DNA of 41,837 nt from positions 14,996-56,832 of the forward strand of contig MHRI01000007.1 of the NCBI GenBank assembly GCA_001820935.1, in the 5' to 3' direction. The position numbers and the translations under genes were made by a program. The notes below the pieces were generated by a model, which ran no database searches, was not told the DNA's origin, and saw only the letters and a list, made by a program, of their open reading frames with translations. Origin of the DNA: Candidatus Taylorbacteria bacterium RIFCSPHIGHO2_01_FULL_51_15 (GTDB lineage: Bacteria; Patescibacteriota; Minisyncoccia; Phycocordibacterales; UBA10002). The stretch's first letter is position 1. Every line of letters begins with the position of its first letter. Shown one piece after another: positions 1 to 28,322 of the stretch.

Positions 1-1348
1 AGCCGCAGGACTTGGAATGTTGCGATACGACTTTGCGGAGATGAGAGGCGCGAAAACCGGATTTGAGTCTTCAGTGGGGAAGACGATCACTCTTGAAGGG
101 CTGATTGCTGATGAACCTGACGTGAGGGAGAGCAATACAAGATATGTCTTGCGTACCACCCCCTCTCCTGTCTCCCCCTCTCTAGAGGGGGAGAGGAAGA
201 AGGGAGAAACGAAGGTGCTTCTTACCATGCCTCATGAACCGCAATTTCGCTATGGAGACAAGGTGACTGTAGCAGGAAAGCTGGAGCGGCCGGAGAATTT
301 CACCGATGAAAAGACACTGCGCGAGGTGAACTATGTCTCCCACTTGGAGAAAGACGGGATCTACTTTGAGATGTTTCGACCCAAGATCACCCGCGCCGCT
401 TCCGGAGAGGGGCACGCGATTGTCGAAACACTATTTGCGTTCAAACACGCATTCATAAAAAACATTAATACGCTTATTCCCGAGCCACACGCCTCTCTCT
501 TAGGCGGTCTTGTCGTAGGGGCCAAACAGTCGCTCGGGAAAGAACTCTTGGATGACTTTCGCAAGGTCGGAGTAATTCACATCGTCGTCCTCTCCGGCTA
601 TAACATCACCATCATCGCCCTCTTCATCGAATGGATCCTCTCTCGTTTGAAGAAGAATGTCCGACTTCTCTTCGCGGCCATGGCGATGACACTCTTCGCC
701 ATCATGGTCGGCGGGAGCGCGACTGTAATCCGCGCGACGGTTATGGCGATTCTTGTACTCCTTGCTCGAGGAACAGGAAGAGTCTATGAGGTGACACGAG
801 CACTTCTTGTCGCCGGAGTGATCATGCTCCTCCACAACCCGAAGATACTCGTGTTCGACACCTCGTTTCAGCTCTCCTTTCTGGCGACGGTCGGTCTTAT
901 CTATGTCTCGCCATTTATCGAACCGAAAGTGAGGTGGATCACGGAATGGTGGCACATGCGGGAGATCGTGGTTGCCACCGTTGCGACACAATTGTTTGTG
1001 CTCCCATTCCTTCTCTATAAAACAGGCATGCTCTCGATCGTTTCGCTTCCGGTGAACTTACTTATTCTGACCGCGATCCCGCTTACGATGCTCTTCGGAT
1101 TTCTCGCCGGTATGGCGGCTTTCGTATCAACCGCGCTCGCTTTCCCTTTTGCCATGCTCGCTTACGCGCTGCTCGCGTACGAACTTTCCATAGTGGAGTG
1201 GTCTTCCTCGCTCTCATTTTCCGCCGTGTCCATACCGTATTTCCCTTTGTGGCTAGCCATATTCTCTTATGGCGTCTATGCAATGCTATTTATTCTGTTG
1301 CGTAAGAAGAAATCAACAGTGCCTTTCAGAGAAGGTCTGCTATCATAA
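1..1348 (+). CDS. comEC: ComEC/Rec2 channel domain protein, 5'-truncated by window
   Basis: The reading frame is open to the window edge (AAGLG precedes the first ATG at 17), so the N-terminus lies upstream. The visible part has an OB-like soluble region (about residues 20-125) and then the multi-TM Competence domain, with the family signature around IHIVVLSGYNITIIA (about residue 190) and at least six hydrophobic segments to the C-terminus. ComEC forms the inner-membrane channel for single-stranded DNA uptake in transformation. It stops without the usual C-terminal metallo-beta-lactamase domain, which is encoded separately at 2473-3333. Odd: residues about 49-65 (PSPVSPSLEGERKKG) are encoded by a GC-rich palindrome and look like an in-frame insertion. 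Confidence 0.9.
   Translation, partial: AAGLGMLRYDFAEMRGAKTGFESSVGKTITLEGLIADEPDVRESNTRYVLRTTPSPVSPSLEGERKKGETKVLLTMPHEPQFRYGDKVTVAGKLERPENFTDEKTLREVNYVSHLEKDGIYFEMFRPKITRAASGEGHAIVETLFAFKHAFIKNINTLIPEPHASLLGGLVVGAKQSLGKELLDDFRKVGVIHIVVLSGYNITIIALFIEWILSRLKKNVRLLFAAMAMTLFAIMVGGSATVIRATVMAILVLLARGTGRVYEVTRALLVAGVIMLLHNPKILVFDTSFQLSFLATVGLIYVSPFIEPKVRWITEWWHMREIVVATVATQLFVLPFLLYKTGMLSIVSLPVNLLILTAIPLTMLFGFLAGMAAFVSTALAFPFAMLAYALLAYELSIVEWSSSLSFSAVSIPYFPLWLAIFSYGVYAMLFILLRKKKSTVPFREGLLS
171..194. repeat. REP-like palindrome inserted in frame in comEC
   Basis: Arms TCTCCCCCTCT and AGAGGGGGAGA pair perfectly over 11 bp around a 2-nt loop. A near-identical 24-nt palindrome (one changed base in the left arm) lies at 30935-30958 and a shorter relative at 30992-31010. 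The sequence is translated inside ComEC. Confidence 0.65.
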
Positions 1349-3358: not shown

Positions 3359-3772
3359 TCACCACTTTTTGGGCTCAAAGTTATACGATCTCTCCGCGTA
3401 CCACTTGTAGTGACGCATCTCCCTCCGATCCCTATCTTCCGGATACAGTGAAAGATGGATCGAGACAGTGTTATCGAGAATTCTGACGAGTTGTTTATAG
3501 TAACCCACATTTTCCGCATTAATGGCTGTTTCGCCCGTCCAGCGGTGGAGTACTTTGTACACTCGCTCGCATTCCATCCGAGAGCGCGCGCGATTTTTGA
3601 TCTCACACAACGCTTCAGAGACGGGAGACCATGCCATGCAAATCCCGCAGATGCCCGCCGCAGTAAGAAGCAGCGTACCCGTAAACTCACGAAGAAAGTG
3701 ATGCCAATAGGAAAAAGTCATGAGAAGGGCCAGCAGAGCAAGCCCCAATATACGGAAAAGGACAGTGCTCAT
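3359..3772 (-). CDS. hypothetical membrane protein (137 aa)
   Basis: Two hydrophobic segments sit at the N-terminus (about residues 5-20 and 30-48). A basic and acidic cytoplasmic tail with many Arg, Glu and Tyr residues follows. No family is recognised. It is convergent with the ComEC lactamase gene and has a clear terminator at its end. A +-strand frame of 110 aa overlaps it, but the membrane-protein composition and the terminator support the minus strand. Confidence 0.6.
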   Translation of the reverse strand: MSTVLFRILGLALLALLMTFSYWHHFLREFTGTLLLTAAGICGICMAWSPVSEALCEIKNRARSRMECERVYKVLHRWTGETAINAENVGYYKQLVRILDNTVSIHLSLYPEDRDRREMRHYKWYAERSYNFEPKKW

Positions 3773-3864
3773 ACGATCTGCCTATAGGATATCCGTCTTA
3801 CAATCCCGCAGCAAGCGAGTGCGCTCCTTTTCCTTCTACTAGCTACTTTCTATGTACTAGTGGA

Positions 3865-13030: not shown

Positions 13031-13414
13031 ATGTCACTACTTAACTTACGAAAAAAGAATACCCCAAATATCACCGCCGCCAAAGGTGGGGTTTTGGCGC
13101 AGACTCCCGTCACAGAGAATAAGATCGAAGCACACGCGCACGCGCTGTCGGATATTCTCGTGCGCCCGCATATTACTGAGAAATCTGCCACGACTGCGGA
13201 GCGAGGGAGCTACGTCTTTGAAGTTGCGGTGAGCGCGACTAAGCGAGACATTGCCCTCGCCGTTCACCGCCTGTTCAAAGTGACCCCGGTAAAAGTAACG
13301 ACGGTGACTATGCCGAGGAGACGCATTATGGTGAAGGGGCGTCCGGGTTTTCGGAAAGGGAGGAAGAAGGCATATGTGTACTTGAAGAAAGGGGAGAAGA
13401 TAGAATTGGTGTAA
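13031..13414 (+). CDS. rplW: 50S ribosomal protein L23
   Basis: The 127-aa protein has a normal uL23 core from about residue 42 (ILVRPHITEKSATTAERGSYVFEV) through VKVTTVTMPRRRI to the end. It is preceded by about 40 extra residues that are low in complexity and not typical of the family. L23 surrounds the exit tunnel and docks trigger factor and SRP, so the extension may alter the exit rim. No Shine-Dalgarno. Confidence 0.95.
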   Translation: MSLLNLRKKNTPNITAAKGGVLAQTPVTENKIEAHAHALSDILVRPHITEKSATTAERGSYVFEVAVSATKRDIALAVHRLFKVTPVKVTTVTMPRRRIMVKGRPGFRKGRKKAYVYLKKGEKIELV

Positions 13415-13419
13415 TCACG

Positions 13420-13500
13420 AATAGCACTCGAATTAAAGAACGCGAATCCCACGAATCCGATTCGGGAGATTAGAGAATAGATTAGAGTTTGATTGGCGAT
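13420..13500 (+). promoter_or_regulatory. rplB leader, CGAATC/GATTCG hairpin plus TTAGAGTTTGATT box
   Basis: CGAATCC/GATTCGGGA words form a short hairpin; TTAGAGTTTGATT (13482-13494) lies 6 nt before the ATG. It is the same leader family as fusA, rpsJ and rplV. Confidence 0.6.
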
Positions 13501-14544: not shown

Positions 14545-14889
14545 ATGACAAGATCAGTTAAAAAAGGACCCTATGTTGATCCTCGCGTTCTTAAAAAGAT
14601 CGCGGGGAAGAGACCGGAATCTGCCGCGGCTATAAAAACATGGTCGCGCGCCTGCGCGATCACTCCTGAAATGGTAGGGTTCAAATTCTTGGTCCATAAC
14701 GGCAAAGATTTTCCTGAAGTCCTCGTGAATGAAGACATGGTGGGGCATCGCCTCGGAGAATTCTCGCTCACTCGAAAGTTCGTGAAGCACGGAGGCAAGA
14801 TGCAAAAAGAGCTTGAAATGAAGAAGAAGGAAGCAGAAATCGCGGCTTCGCAAACAGCAAAGACGGCTGCGACTGAAGCCAAGAAGTAA
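14545..14889 (+). CDS. rpsS: 30S ribosomal protein S19
   Basis: The 114-aa protein starts [19 protein letters not shown] and contains [38 protein letters not shown], which is typical of uS19. About 25 extra C-terminal residues rich in Lys, Ala and Glu extend past the usual end near residue 92. S19 contacts the A-site region of the head. It follows an internal promoter. Confidence 0.96.
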
Positions 14890-14983
14890 TCACTAAGAGA
14901 CCTCGAATTGGAGACGCCAATCACGCGAATCTCATTCGAGAGAATTCGAGTAACTATTAGAGTTTGATTTGGGAGTAGCGAGT
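14890..14983 (+). promoter_or_regulatory. rplV leader, ATTCGAG-type hairpin plus TTAGAGTTTGATT box
   Basis: CTCGAATT on the left pairs with GAATTCGAG on the right; TTAGAGTTTGATT (14957-14969) precedes GGGAG and the ATG at 14984. GGGAG could serve as a weak Shine-Dalgarno. Confidence 0.55.
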
Positions 14984-17221: not shown

Positions 17222-17277
17222 ACCCTGTTAAATCCCGCCATGCGGGCTTTCGCCAAAGGCGAAAGATTTAACAGGGT
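17222..17277 (+). promoter_or_regulatory. three-way-junction RNA element, copy 1 (before rplN)
   Basis: Outer stem ACCCTGTTAAAT/ATTTAACAGGGT (12 bp), inner hairpins CCCGC-CAT-GCGGG and CTTTCGCC-AAA-GGCGAAAG. All pair perfectly with no unpaired junction base. Copy 2 before rplF (19709-19764) differs only in the first loop. Confidence 0.85.
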
Positions 17278-17280
17278 GAT

Positions 17281-17315
17281 GATTTTCAAAAACTCGCCGA
17301 CTCGTTAAGAAAATC
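17281..17315 (+). promoter_or_regulatory. start-proximal GATTTTC/GAAAATC hairpin before rplN
   Basis: GATTTTC (17281-17287) pairs with GAAAATC (17309-17315), with ACTCGC and CTCG words in between. The ATG follows 4 nt later, as at rplP and rplF. Confidence 0.75.
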
Positions 17316-17319
17316 AATC

Positions 17320-17691
17320 ATGTTACAGCCTCGAGCCATTGTCAAAATCGCGGATAACTCCGGAGGGAAAATCGGACGGATTTTCAAGGTGCTTGGGTCT
17401 TCAAAAAAGCGCTACGCCGAAATTGGCGAGCTCGTCGTTCTTTCGGTGCAAAAAGCTGAACCTCGAAAGACGGTGAAGAAAAAGGATGTGTTGCACGCCG
17501 TCGTTGTTCGTCAAAGGAAGCCATTTCGCCGAAAGGATGGCTCCTATATCCGTTTCGATGAGAACGCTGTCGTGATTCTGGAAAAGGGGAAGAAGGACCC
17601 GCTTGCCGGCCGCGTCTTCGGCCCGATTCCAAGGGAGCTTTCGGAGAAAGGATTTCATTCGATCACCTCAAAAGCTGCTGAAGTCGTTTAA
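17320..17691 (+). CDS. rplN: 50S ribosomal protein L14
   Basis: The 123-aa uL14 starts MLQPRAIVKIADNSGGKIGRIFKVLG and has AVVVRQRKPFRRKDGSYIRFDENAVVIL and DPLAGRVFGPIPREL, the subunit-interface pattern. The length is normal. Its TAA stop lies inside the 95-bp repeat that also precedes rplE. Confidence 0.97.
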   Translation: MLQPRAIVKIADNSGGKIGRIFKVLGSSKKRYAEIGELVVLSVQKAEPRKTVKKKDVLHAVVVRQRKPFRRKDGSYIRFDENAVVILEKGKKDPLAGRVFGPIPRELSEKGFHSITSKAAEVV

Positions 17692-17781
17692 TAATACGAA
17701 TAGCGAATCAATACGAATATACGAATGAAGAAGAAAATACGCAAAGAATATTTGTAAATTCGTACCAATTCGTTATTCGTA
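17687..17781 (+). repeat. 95-bp identical spacer repeat, copy 1 (rplN-rplX)
   Basis: Identical over 95 bases to 18083-18177. It contains the stop of rplN. TACGAATAGCGAATC words on the left complement ATTCGTACCAATTCGTTATTCGTA-type words on the right, so the RNA folds into a long hairpin ending 6 nt before the rplX ATG. Confidence 0.9.
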
Positions 17782-17787
17782 GTAATC

Positions 17788-18087: not shown

Positions 18088-18177
18088 TAATACGAATAGC
18101 GAATCAATACGAATATACGAATGAAGAAGAAAATACGCAAAGAATATTTGTAAATTCGTACCAATTCGTTATTCGTA
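18083..18177 (+). repeat. 95-bp identical spacer repeat, copy 2 (rplX-rplE)
   Basis: Identical to 17687-17781; contains the stop of rplX and ends 6 nt before the rplE ATG. Confidence 0.9.
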
Positions 18178-18183
18178 ATAAGC

Positions 18184-19708: not shown

Positions 19709-19764
19709 ACCCTGTTAAATCCCGCTTCGCGGGCTTTCGCCAAAGGCGAAAGATTTAACAGGGT
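19709..19764 (+). promoter_or_regulatory. three-way-junction RNA element, copy 2 (before rplF)
   Basis: Same outer 12-bp stem and second hairpin as copy 1. The first hairpin is CCCGC-TTC-GCGGG instead of CCCGC-CAT-GCGGG, so only a loop changes. Confidence 0.85.
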
Positions 19765-19767
19765 GAT

Positions 19768-19802
19768 GATTTTCAAAGACTCGCAGACTCGTTAAGAAAA
19801 TC
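19768..19802 (+). promoter_or_regulatory. start-proximal GATTTTC/GAAAATC hairpin before rplF
   Basis: GATTTTC (19768-19774) pairs with GAAAATC (19796-19802). The ATG follows 4 nt later, as at rplP and rplN. Confidence 0.75.
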
Positions 19803-19806
19803 AATC

Positions 19807-20340
19807 ATGAGCAGACTTGCTAAAAAACCAATAGTCATCCCCGAAAAAGTGGAGGTGGTGGTGCAGAACGGAAACGTGTCGGTCACCGGCCCCTTAGGCA
19901 CGCTTTCAAGAAGCGTACCTGGAGCTATTTCCTTGGTGGTAAAGGACGGCGGCATTGTGGTAACGCCGAACAACAACGCGCTCTCAACAAAAATGCTCGT
20001 CGGCACCACGGTGGCGCACGTACGCAACATGATTAAAGGCAGTACCGAAATGTTTGTAAAGAAACTCATTATTGAAGGTATCGGCTTCAAAGCCGAAGTT
20101 AAAGGCTCCTCCTTGCAACTTGCCCTTGGTTTTTCTCACCCCGTGACGGTAGCTATCCCGAAGGAACTGAAGGTTGTTTCGGAAAAAGGACTCCTTAGCA
20201 TAAGCGGCGGGAATATTGAGACCGTTGGAGCCTTTGCGGCACGTGTCCGCGCCTTGAAAAAGCCCGAGCCCTATAAGGGAAAAGGGATACGTTACGAAAC
20301 CGAAGTGATTAGAAGGAAGCAGGGAAAGAAGACCACCTAA
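19807..20340 (+). CDS. rplF: 50S ribosomal protein L6
   Basis: The 177-aa uL6 has the two related domains of the family: VTGPLGTLSRSVPGA in the first; IEGIGFKAEVKGSSLQLALGFSHPV and the conserved KPEPYKGKGIRYETEVIRRKQGKK end in the second. The length is normal. It lies under the most elaborate leader of the cluster: hairpin, three-way junction, start-proximal hairpin. Confidence 0.97.
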   Translation: MSRLAKKPIVIPEKVEVVVQNGNVSVTGPLGTLSRSVPGAISLVVKDGGIVVTPNNNALSTKMLVGTTVAHVRNMIKGSTEMFVKKLIIEGIGFKAEVKGSSLQLALGFSHPVTVAIPKELKVVSEKGLLSISGGNIETVGAFAARVRALKKPEPYKGKGIRYETEVIRRKQGKKTT

Positions 20341-25294: not shown

Positions 25295-26071
25295 ATGGGA
25301 GTAACGGTCAAAACAGCTAAAGAAATAGAGATTCTCCGGGAAGGAGGCAAACGTTTAGGGGAGATCTTGCAGAAGGTCGCGGCAGAGGTGAAGCCGGGAG
25401 TTTCAGGCAAGATGCTGAACGACCTCGCGGAGACACTCATGCGGGAGAAGGGGGACAGCCCTTCGTTTTTAGGATATTCTCCCCGGGGAGCTAAGCGGGC
25501 ATTCCCCGCCGCGCTCTGCGTTTCGGTGAATGATGAGGTCGTGCATGGTATCCCCAATGAGAAAGAAAAAATCTTGCGCGAAGGAGATATCGTGGCCCTC
25601 GACGCCGGCCTCATACATAAAGGGCTGTTTACGGATAGCGCGATGACGATCGGGGTGGGGAAGATAGACGAGGGAGGGCAGAACCTTATTGACACGACGA
25701 AGAAAGCTCTCGCGGTCGGTATTGGAGCGGTGCGTGCAGGAGCGACAACCGGAGATATCGGATTCGCAATTGAAAAGTTTGTGACCTCCGCCGGGAGTTT
25801 CGGTATTGTTCGAGACCTGGCGGGCCACGGAGTCGGCTACAGCGTGCACGAGGAACCGCTCATACCCAATTTTGGAAAGAAAGGCGAGGGCACCGCACTC
25901 AAGGCAGGTATGGTGATCGCGATCGAACCGATGCTAAATGAAGGCAAAGCGGCGGTAAAGATTGACGGGGACGGATACACCTACCGTACCAAAGATGGCA
26001 CACGGAGCGCCCATTTTGAGCACACCGTTGTCGTGACCGAGAAAGGGGCGGAGATTTTGACGAAAGTGTGA
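25295..26071 (+). CDS. map: methionine aminopeptidase, type I
   Basis: The 258-aa protein removes N-terminal Met. Metal-binding motifs are visible: DIVALDAGLIHKGLFTDSAM, LAGHGVGYSVHEEPLIPN, VIAIEPM and the final HFEHTVVVTEKGAEILTKV. The length is normal. Its last 15 bases before the final codons (GGCGGAGATTTTGAC) recur at 26675-26689, beyond the toxin-antitoxin pair, within a second copy of the map tail. Confidence 0.95.
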   Translation: MGVTVKTAKEIEILREGGKRLGEILQKVAAEVKPGVSGKMLNDLAETLMREKGDSPSFLGYSPRGAKRAFPAALCVSVNDEVVHGIPNEKEKILREGDIVALDAGLIHKGLFTDSAMTIGVGKIDEGGQNLIDTTKKALAVGIGAVRAGATTGDIGFAIEKFVTSAGSFGIVRDLAGHGVGYSVHEEPLIPNFGKKGEGTALKAGMVIAIEPMLNEGKAAVKIDGDGYTYRTKDGTRSAHFEHTVVVTEKGAEILTKV

Positions 26072-26077
26072 TATACT
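26069..26077 (+). promoter_or_regulatory. extended -10 promoter of the toxin-antitoxin pair
   Basis: TGATATACT overlaps the map stop codon (TGA, 26069-26071) and lies 9 nt before the antitoxin ATG. Confidence 0.5.
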
Positions 26078-26086
26078 TGATCCGAT

Positions 26087-26242
26087 ATGCAAAAGGCTAA
26101 ACTAAAAAGAGTCCGTATAGATCCGTGGAATATGAGCGGGGCCGAACGCCTCGCTATTTGGAGACGTGCGCAAGCGGTATGGAGCAAGCGAAGAGTTGAC
26201 CCAATAAAAGAATTAAATAAGATAAGGCGAGAGTGGCGTTAA
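26087..26242 (+). CDS. small putative antitoxin (51 aa)
   Basis: The frame encodes MQKAKLKRVRIDPWNMSG and then AERLAIWRRAQAVWSKRR, a basic, Trp-rich helical peptide ending KIRREWR. It ends 3 nt before the PIN-domain gene, the usual antitoxin-toxin layout. No DNA-binding fold of the VapB, Phd or RelB families is recognised, so the antitoxin role rests on position and size. Confidence 0.6.
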   Translation: MQKAKLKRVRIDPWNMSGAERLAIWRRAQAVWSKRRVDPIKELNKIRREWR

Positions 26243-26245
26243 TTC

Positions 26246-26620
26246 ATGGTAACGCTTGATACGAATGCGGTTATTTATTACCTAAAGGGTGACGTTGCCG
26301 CGACGGCCGTGCTCGAGCCGATTATTCGCGGGTACACTCCCATGTTTATCGCCACTATTACCGAGGTTGAATTATTCAGTTTGCCTACCATTACTGCAGA
26401 AGAAAGTGGACGAATTGAGCTATTACTCCCCCTTTTTTCTATCCTCGCGCTCGATTCGCGGATGGCGCGCAAAGCAGCCGAACTCCGTCGGCTCTATCCG
26501 AAACTCAAAATAGCAGACAGCATCGTCGCGGCCGCTGCGCTTTTCACCCACTCGACTCTTTTGACGAGAAACGTAAAGGACTTCAAAAGGATTTCAGGCC
26601 TCTCCGTACAATCCGTTTAA
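26246..26620 (+). CDS. PIN-domain ribonuclease toxin (VapC-like)
   Basis: The 124-aa protein shows LDTNAVIYYLKG (Asp5), TEVELFS (acidic residues 40 and 42), KIADSIVAAAA and LLTRNVKDFKRISGL: the complete acidic set of the PIN fold. Such toxins cleave tRNA or rRNA to stop translation. With the upstream 51-aa gene it forms a type II-like toxin-antitoxin pair. It is placed exactly at the map 3' end, followed by a leftover map tail, so it looks inserted. Confidence 0.85.
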   Translation: MVTLDTNAVIYYLKGDVAATAVLEPIIRGYTPMFIATITEVELFSLPTITAEESGRIELLLPLFSILALDSRMARKAAELRRLYPKLKIADSIVAAAALFTHSTLLTRNVKDFKRISGLSVQSV

Positions 26621-26624
26621 CTTG

Positions 26625-26699
26625 TACGATTCAGTAGGCCTATTCGAACACACGCTTCTTGTGGCCGAAACAGAGGCGGAGATTTTGACTTATGTATAA
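26625..26699 (+). pseudogene. remnant of the map 3' end
   Basis: The frame reads YDSVGLFEHTLLVAETEA and then EILTYV, with a TAA stop. It aligns with the map C-terminus (HFEHTVVVTEKGAEILTKV) and shares 15 identical bases. No start or upstream domain is present. It is best read as the original map tail displaced when the toxin-antitoxin pair entered. Confidence 0.75.
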
Positions 26700-26728
26700 A
26701 AAAGAGGCCTGGATTGCTCCAAGCCTCT
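26698..26728 (-). terminator. terminator of the 480-aa minus-strand gene
   Basis: GAGGC-TGGA/TCCA-GCCTC stem; on the minus strand it is followed by TTTTTT. Confidence 0.75.
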
Positions 26729-26750
26729 CGTGAAGAACTGTCGTGGCTAT

Positions 26751-28202
26751 TTAGGCGGCCACCGGCGCTTGCTCGTCTTTCTCAGACGATGTTTTCCTTC
26801 CCCGCGGCTTTTGAGGTTTTGCGTTGTTAATCGCCTCCTCTAAGTCGTTGGTTCCCGCAGCCGCCGTAGCTGGCTCGGGTGAAGGATCAGTCGGTTTAGC
26901 CTCCGACGTGGGCTGATGTGCTACGCTCCGCTTTCGGGCGATAATTCCTTGTTCTCGCATCCATTTCGGGACGCCGTAGGAGTGGAATGCGTGTTGGATG
27001 GCGTAGAGGAGCGCCTCTCCCTTGATGGCCGTTGCTGGCACGTCCCCCTGGCTGAATCCATTCATGATTTTCTTCTTGCGGAAGATGTACTTCCACTTAT
27101 CCTGAATGTCCGCATGGGTATCCACCACCTTGAGAGCTTGCCACGGAATGTTCCGTGGGTTCCACCCGGACGCGAGGAGTTCCAGCGTCTGAATCATCTG
27201 CCAGAGGCAGACGAGACTGACGGGGAGCTTTTGGTCCATGTAAATGGCCAGATTCCCCGCGACGTTTTGCACTACGACAATCCCGATCCCCTGCACCTCT
27301 TTGCTATGGCTGGCGTGGGGGATGAGTGGATTGTCCGTTTGCACAAAAATCGCCTTGATCTCGGTCTCCTTGCCGTAGTGTTGGGTCTTCACGGTGTGGC
27401 GCTGTGCCGTTTGGCACAGGTCCACCGCTTCCCAGTACAGCAATTCATCCTGATAGAGGCCGCGAAGGAGATTTTGGACAATCTTCTTGCCCTCCTTCGG
27501 CCCCTCTTCGCAGATGAGACAGTCTGTGATGGCGGAGAGTTCCAGAATACTGTTGTTCTTGCGTTCAACACTTTTCTGGACCAACTGCCGCAGACTCTTG
27601 CAGGCCCGCTCGTCGGTAAAGAGTGGCGACTTCCCCCCGCACATCTCCTCGTAAAAGGAGAGCAGGGTTCCATCGTCAACATTCTTCACCCGCCGGTGAA
27701 TCAAGCCATGATGCACGTAATGCATGACGGCGATGATGTAGTTAGCGACGGCGTGTCGGTTAATGACGCGGTGCATAATCCGGATAATCGCGGGGAGCTC
27801 GGTCCGGCTCCCCGCGTCCTCCACAGTCTTGCGGACTGCGGCGGTGATGCGTTGGAGCGGCCGGTCTTCCTCAATTCCGAGGAATTCAGTCATCGCCTCG
27901 GTTGCGGACTCTCCGAACTTCCCGAATCGGCCTCCACCCGTCCCAATGACGAGCTCTTGCCGCTTCTGAAAATACGATTCCGGCTGGTTCGCGATTCCCT
28001 CACTGAGTTCCAGTGTCGCGGTTTTGAGCCCTGGAAAACGCTCGTCTCCCTGTTTGAAGGAGCGCGCGCGGCGGAGTGCCTCAATGGCGTCCAATCTGAG
28101 AAACTTTGGGAGCCACACCTTGTTGACTCGGTAAGATGCGAAGGTGAGGGCTTCGGACGGTTCGGCGGTGGGCGGGGTGTTTTCTGTTTTCATAATTTCC
28201 AT
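26751..28202 (-). CDS. hypothetical protein (483 aa)
   Basis: The longest frame starts at 28322, inside the -35 box of a strong promoter, so I place the start at the ATG of 28202 (MEIMKTENTPPTAEPSE). A His-rich segment HYVHHGLIHRR lies near residue 165 and a Cys pair CLIC near 225; the stretch AIFVQTDNPLIPHASHSKEVQGIGIVVVQN recalls hypothetical CPR proteins, and MYG1-like DHH hydrolases only distantly. The last 70 residues are disordered and Lys/Pro-rich. No function is assigned. A good promoter and terminator frame it as a monocistronic unit. Confidence 0.75.
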   Translation of the reverse strand: MEIMKTENTPPTAEPSEALTFASYRVNKVWLPKFLRLDAIEALRRARSFKQGDERFPGLKTATLELSEGIANQPESYFQKRQELVIGTGGGRFGKFGESATEAMTEFLGIEEDRPLQRITAAVRKTVEDAGSRTELPAIIRIMHRVINRHAVANYIIAVMHYVHHGLIHRRVKNVDDGTLLSFYEEMCGGKSPLFTDERACKSLRQLVQKSVERKNNSILELSAITDCLICEEGPKEGKKIVQNLLRGLYQDELLYWEAVDLCQTAQRHTVKTQHYGKETEIKAIFVQTDNPLIPHASHSKEVQGIGIVVVQNVAGNLAIYMDQKLPVSLVCLWQMIQTLELLASGWNPRNIPWQALKVVDTHADIQDKWKYIFRKKKIMNGFSQGDVPATAIKGEALLYAIQHAFHSYGVPKWMREQGIIARKRSVAHQPTSEAKPTDPSPEPATAAAGTNDLEEAINNAKPQKPRGRKTSSEKDEQAPVAA

Positions 28203-28293
28203 CTTCGTTCTATGCAGTGTAGGGCTAACGAAAAAGGCCCCGTTTTTGGTATACGGAAAGTAGCTTACTTCTGTCGAAGAGCCACTGCAGACT

Positions 28294-28322
28294 ATAGTAG
28301 CATATTTAACTGTATAAGTCAA
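28294..28322 (-). promoter_or_regulatory. strong promoter of the 483-aa gene
   Basis: On the minus strand: TTGACT (28322-28317), exactly 17 nt, TACTAT (28299-28294). Predicted leader about 85 nt to the ATG at 28202. Confidence 0.8.

Follow-up and report, generated by a model that had tools for sequence, protein, structure and literature searches.

Toxin-antitoxin pairs bracketed by duplicated ends of neighboring genes at map and other loci in Parcubacteria

The map locus and its insert

The window considered here, a stretch of 41,837 nt, belongs to a genome of 0.85 Mb whose congeners are Parcubacteria, one of them bearing the name Candidatus Taylorbacteria. On the forward strand, the anchor gene map (25295 to 26071), coding for a type I methionine aminopeptidase (TIGR00500, E = 2.5e-79; PF00557, E = 3.6e-44), is followed by a VapBC-type toxin-antitoxin (TA) pair and then by a second map tail. 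In the repeat alignment, the intact tail of the gene contains the first copy (26015 to 26061) of a 47-nt direct repeat, whose second copy (26643 to 26689, 79% identity) is part of the displaced tail, which reads FEHTLLVAETEAEILTYV and a stop codon and occupies positions 26643 to 26699 of the same strand. The displaced tail starts 23 bases past the toxin stop and runs in frame to its own stop codon at 26697 to 26699. In addition to the alignment, the repeat was recovered by blastn within ±3 kb (E = 5e-6), and its score of 54 was not reached when the downstream sequence was put through 200 Markov shuffles (best shuffle, 40). These results support the first-pass annotation, according to which the 3' end of map received a TA pair, the gene was rebuilt, and the old tail was left behind. 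The 15 identical bases on which it had remarked, GGCGGAGATTTTGAC, do occur at 26047 to 26061 and 26675 to 26689, whereas the remnant, which it had started at 26625, reads as a map tail from 26643 onward, the 18 nt ahead of it (26625 to 26642) having no reliable map match.

No integrase or recombinase was found within the insert. Beyond the remnant, on the reverse strand, lie a terminator-like hairpin of a convergent gene (26702 to 26729), the T-tract of which reaches into the remnant's stop codon, and a convergent ORF (26751 to 28322; about 500 and up to 523 amino acids) with no Pfam match, which was also found 3' of map in several congeners. The further suggestion that the insert splits a secY-adk-map-infA order had to be abandoned: the order in the window is secY-adk-AA_kinase-NUDIX-map, a motif search recognized no infA near map in the window or in the congeners, and in TA-less relatives map is followed by ndk (sister clade) or by a convergent ORF. 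Since map-ndk is the arrangement found in such relatives, the insert does not interrupt a map-infA order.

Other repeats of the window occur in the intergenic regions between the ribosomal protein genes of the operon, namely a near-identical pair at 17692 to 17785 and 18088 to 18181 (94 nt, 99%) and two further pairs at 17222 to 17322 and 19709 to 19809 (101 nt, 95%) and at 13411 to 13494 and 14886 to 14969 (85 nt, 78%).

The TA pair and its putative promoter

The toxin (26246 to 26620, forward strand) is a VapC-type protein with a PIN domain (PF01850, E = 5.8e-16; PDB VapC 7by2, E = 3.4e-13), whose acidic active-site residues D5, E40, D91, and D112 are invariant (alignment A2). Directly 5' of it, in the VapB position, lies a short antitoxin gene (26087 to 26242, forward strand; 51 amino acids), and the pair is retained in G000, G001, G004, and G005. 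Judging from its sequence, the gene pair after map is a genuine toxin-antitoxin pair. It resembles type II VapBC systems in that a single operon encodes a small antitoxin followed by a toxin with a PIN domain, but it differs from them in that the antitoxin belongs to no named family of the searched libraries (no match to Pfam, NCBIfam, or PADLOC models) and in that transcription of the operon seems to start from a promoter that includes the stop codon of the upstream gene. As the antitoxin falls outside the recognized VapB families, we refer to a VapC-type pair and do not file it under a VapBC subfamily.

The putative promoter element, TGATATACT (26069 to 26077, forward strand), is overlapped by the map stop codon and may serve the TA operon as an extended -10 box. 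It has this form in three of the TA-bearing genomes and the form TGATATGCT in G005, with TGATATRCT conserved throughout. The antitoxin ATG lies 9 nt past the box in the window, and 6 to 9 nt past it across the TA-bearing congeners; with so short a distance, the mRNA is probably leaderless. The overlap of a putative -10 box with the new map stop, already proposed in the first-pass annotation, is conserved, but the consensus promoter scan of the window did not call the box, for want of a -35 element. The conserved box and its distance from the antitoxin start point to a promoter of the extended -10 type and to an mRNA that lacks a leader.

The map region in congeners

The map gene is present in all 12 congeners. 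It is followed by the TA pair, with the antitoxin ahead of the toxin, in G001, G004, and G005, and by the antitoxin alone in G002, while in G003 HicAB separates map from ndk (L014, 2305 to 2735), two genes that are directly adjacent in its near relatives G006 and G010. Two TA families, VapBC and HicAB, therefore occur directly 3' of map within one genus. G001 shows the same succession of map, TA pair, and tail as the window, with the second map tail right behind the toxin (83 nt, 76%, E = 5e-12). The remnants of G000 and G001 are 56% identical and share no derived base, which gives no support to one ancient event behind both.

In support of an insertion, no second tail matching above shuffles was found in the TA-less genomes G008, G009, G011, G006, and G010 or in the antitoxin-only G002. 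The exception is G012, which is TA-less and nevertheless has an old tail 111 nt past the map stop; this tail agrees with the map of G008 in 27 of 31 positions, as against 17 of 28 for the map of G012 itself. In the same genome (L007), a long palindrome, ATGTACCACATATCTGCGGTCGCAGATATGTGGTACAT, lies between the map stop and the old tail. The congeners without the pair are only 68 to 71% identical at map, too distant for the boundaries of the insert to be fixed by comparison.

As for the window itself, identity of the remnant amounts to 74% with its own map tail and to 68 to 70% with the tails of three congeners, and the two map tails differ as much as do those of different species (74%), neither copy being clearly foreign. 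Because the remnant is not clearly nearer to any other species, target duplication followed by decay could also account for the copies at map. The excess of differences at third codon positions between map copies is weak (8 of 14 and 10 of 19), and a scan of sliding identity between map and its congeners, in search of a crossover point, gave no clear breakpoint. The TA DNA of G005 and G000 is 74% identical, compared with 61% for their map genes; the likeness begins exactly at the map stop, and no donor tail is visible at the G005 map. This may reflect an exchange limited to the TA region, between two loci already holding it, or else some preference for that point. The toxin frame of G005 (L045 and L013) enters unrelated sequence near the contig end, possibly a chimeric one.

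The same signature at other genes

Duplicated gene ends around other TA pairs, as the first-pass annotation had anticipated, were found at several genes of the order, in two separate sets comprising 21 loci of related PIN toxins and 60 loci of the ParE family. Among the PIN loci, the bracketing copies derive from map (twice), from the head of an MxRKTK gene (in two congeners), from the head of uvrC (377 nt, 81% identical), from the tail of murA (63 nt, 87% identical), and from tatD, the head of which is copied across the TA pair. In the ParE set they derive from the heads of transketolase and glycosyltransferase genes, from the tails of groEL and rpmB, and from one further head. Repeat lengths span 34 to 377 nt, and some copies are nearly identical (groEL, 97%; transketolase, 93%; glycosyltransferase, 95%; MxRKTK gene, 100%). 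About 85% of the TA loci have no remnant.

At rpmB and transketolase, three gene-end copies alternate with two TA pairs of unrelated families (ParE and HicAB at the former, ParE and Gp49/HTH at the latter); it follows that tandem amplification of one pair fails as an explanation. The outer remnant of rpmB is 93.5% like the gene and the inner one 84%. The name rpmB reflects our reading of a 69-amino-acid protein, presumably ribosomal protein bL28, which had no match in a Pfam search. At a further locus, L117 (1600 to 5191), repeats of about 70 nt separate an SGNH-like hydrolase gene and TA pairs of the RHH/RelE type, of which there are three, an arrangement that resembles a cassette array.

Counts and controls

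By an automated rule, in which the end of a neighboring gene had to match the far flank at an E value of at most 1e-4, 13 of the 80 TA loci examined in the order were positive compared with 9 of 265 non-TA genes (p = 2e-4), the latter being made up of 7 of 205 genes in the same loci and 2 of 60 NUDIX loci. After inspection, which was carried out by the analyst and not blind, 12 of 80 TA loci and at most 2 of 265 non-TA genes were convincing (p = 7e-7), with map and the MxRKTK gene, each counted in two species, not being independent loci; with the four discovery loci left out, the TA count was 8 of 76 (p = 1e-4). The comparison of ParE alone with NUDIX alone (5 of 60 versus 2 of 60) was not significant (p = 0.22), so that the claim depends on the sets taken jointly. 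Among 60 ParE loci from beyond the order, the rule gave 4 positives, only one of them convincing (L226, an aminotransferase tail).

The one TA positive removed on inspection, L084, is a dispersed repeat, as are L209 and L245, whereas the repeats of L241 and probably L251 were set aside as gene paralogues, and that of L076 (190 nt) was not counted, being intergenic. Inspection of the control positives revealed TA genes that had escaped labeling, dispersed repeats, the VR/TR-like pair of L107, and the NUDIX locus L164. At L107 (3840 to 6235), a 49-nt repeat at the 3' end of a gene and downstream of it, set aside as a VR/TR-like pair, adjoins a reverse-transcriptase-like ORF, and the whole looks like a diversity-generating retroelement. 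At L164, a perfect 260-nt direct repeat (2087 to 2346 and 3566 to 3825) brackets the NUDIX gene.

Divergence between the copies

Of the 73 differences between the two uvrC copies, 54 affect third codon positions (p = 1.5e-12), which indicates that both evolved as working alleles and were later brought together; in a decaying target duplication, differences would be expected to be spread over the codon positions on the side of the outer copy. A comparison with five family members, which has no power for this purpose, did not identify the native copy. In the other pairs pooled, with uvrC excluded, third positions account for 61 of 107 differences (p = 4e-7), a weaker excess, as part of it could stem from selection acting only on the active copy and as stacked copies are not independent. 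Thus, the divergence at uvrC and the old tail of G012 favor an exchange with a diverged allele.

Possible routes of arrival

We consider it probable, though well short of certain, that the pairs arrived by homology-facilitated illegitimate recombination, a one-sided homologous exchange through the neighboring gene combined with an illegitimate join in the end of the resident gene. At map, the TA pair would have come in on foreign DNA that included the terminal part of a map allele. On one side this DNA would have recombined homologously with the resident map, and on the other it would have been joined illegitimately within the last 50 to 80 bases of the resident gene. Such an event would leave map intact, though with a tail of donor type, followed by the TA operon under a promoter using the map stop codon and, as a fossil, by the displaced tail of the resident. 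The allelic copies at uvrC fit such a course of events. Entry probably followed natural DNA uptake, after which the pair may have been retained through its addiction property, and repeated events at one gene end would stack TA pairs, each with a further displaced end behind it. The ComEC family (PF03772) occurs in 12 of 13 congeners, with a copy at the start of the window (509 to 1306); its presence is consistent with DNA uptake and does not prove it.

A rather unlikely explanation is insertion with long target duplication (Nobusato et al. 2000), in which a transposon-like entry with a long stagger would copy 30 to 380 bases of the target and the outer copy would then decay. The architecture is as described for restriction-modification genes in PMC1643837 and PMC3874152, several copies are 93 to 100% identical, as reported above for groEL, transketolase, glycosyltransferase, and the MxRKTK gene, and the remnants of the window and of G001 are each marginally nearest to their own map tail. 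Against it, the uvrC copies have diverged as functional alleles do, the G012 tail fits the allele of another species, and at rpmB it is the outer remnant that is nearer to the gene, the reverse of simple age decay. That a dedicated site-specific system with a recombinase in trans integrates at the map stop codon, after the manner of elements at tRNA and tmRNA genes, seems very unlikely to us, even though VapBC and HicAB both lie directly after map in one genus, TGATATRCT is conserved, and the likeness of G005 begins at the stop: related TA pairs stand at many unrelated genes and at both of their ends, the repeats vary widely in length, and the insert carries no recombinase. Where the first-pass annotation had left homologous and site-specific exchange side by side, the former fits better, because there are about ten anchor genes, both 5' and 3' ends are involved, no integrase is present, and the uvrC copies represent diverged functional alleles.

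Two tails would also be expected if a tandem copy of map had decayed to its end and the TA pair had come later. We regard such a relic of ordinary gene duplication as highly improbable, given that what is left is in every case the terminal piece, located right beyond a TA pair, and that the same is seen at about ten genes, with stacked copies accompanied by different TA pairs. Least credible of all is chance similarity or an assembly artifact: the genomes are metagenome assemblies, in which repeats may cause misassembly, but no shuffle reached the score of the map repeat, most copies differ by 5 to 25%, unlike a duplicated stretch of reads, and the pattern recurs in independent assemblies of several species.

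Comparison with known systems

Homology-facilitated illegitimate recombination, as defined in PMC3240628, shares with the events proposed here a homologous crossover at one end of linear DNA and an illegitimate join at the other, and it has been described in naturally competent bacteria; it is known from laboratory experiments, whereas our case is deduced from genome sequences of uncultured bacteria and concerns TA pairs. For restriction-modification genes, insertion with long target duplication has been reported (Nobusato et al. 2000 and Furuta et al. 2010, both through PMC3874152 and PMC1643837). Here, too, direct repeats of the target, tens to hundreds of bases long, stand on either side of the module. 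Such insertions are similar also in involving a small addiction-type module, without a recombinase of its own, and target repeats of variable length, of the order of 100 bp; they differ from the present loci, which hold TA pairs of several families, gene-end repeats with an intact gene, possible diverged alleles, and stacking.

The resemblance to integrative elements at tRNA and tmRNA genes, which the first-pass annotation had drawn, extends to the restoration of the 3' end of an essential gene and to the persistence of the old end beyond the insert, but it does not hold further, since anchors and ends vary, with 5' ends and many kinds of protein genes being involved, and the insert has no integrase. 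Reviews on TA mobility mention long target duplication for restriction-modification only. A literature search whose coverage mostly excluded subscription papers found no such report for TA pairs.

Implications

How chromosomal TA pairs move without a mobile element is a long-standing question. The pattern, so far reported for restriction-modification genes, is here extended to TA pairs, and the displaced gene ends provide a countable trace for each arrival, so that donor and insertion order become testable by comparison of alleles. It would also tie the spread of TA pairs to DNA uptake in ultra-small, mostly uncultured bacteria. It is possible to hypothesize, tentatively and with slightly more doubt than conviction, that the TA pairs of Parcubacteria are anchor-riding cassettes, which would spread between species by homologous exchange through an adjoining housekeeping gene, borrow the end of that gene (in map, the stop codon within the promoter), pile up, and leave a stratigraphy of displaced ends that records their arrivals.
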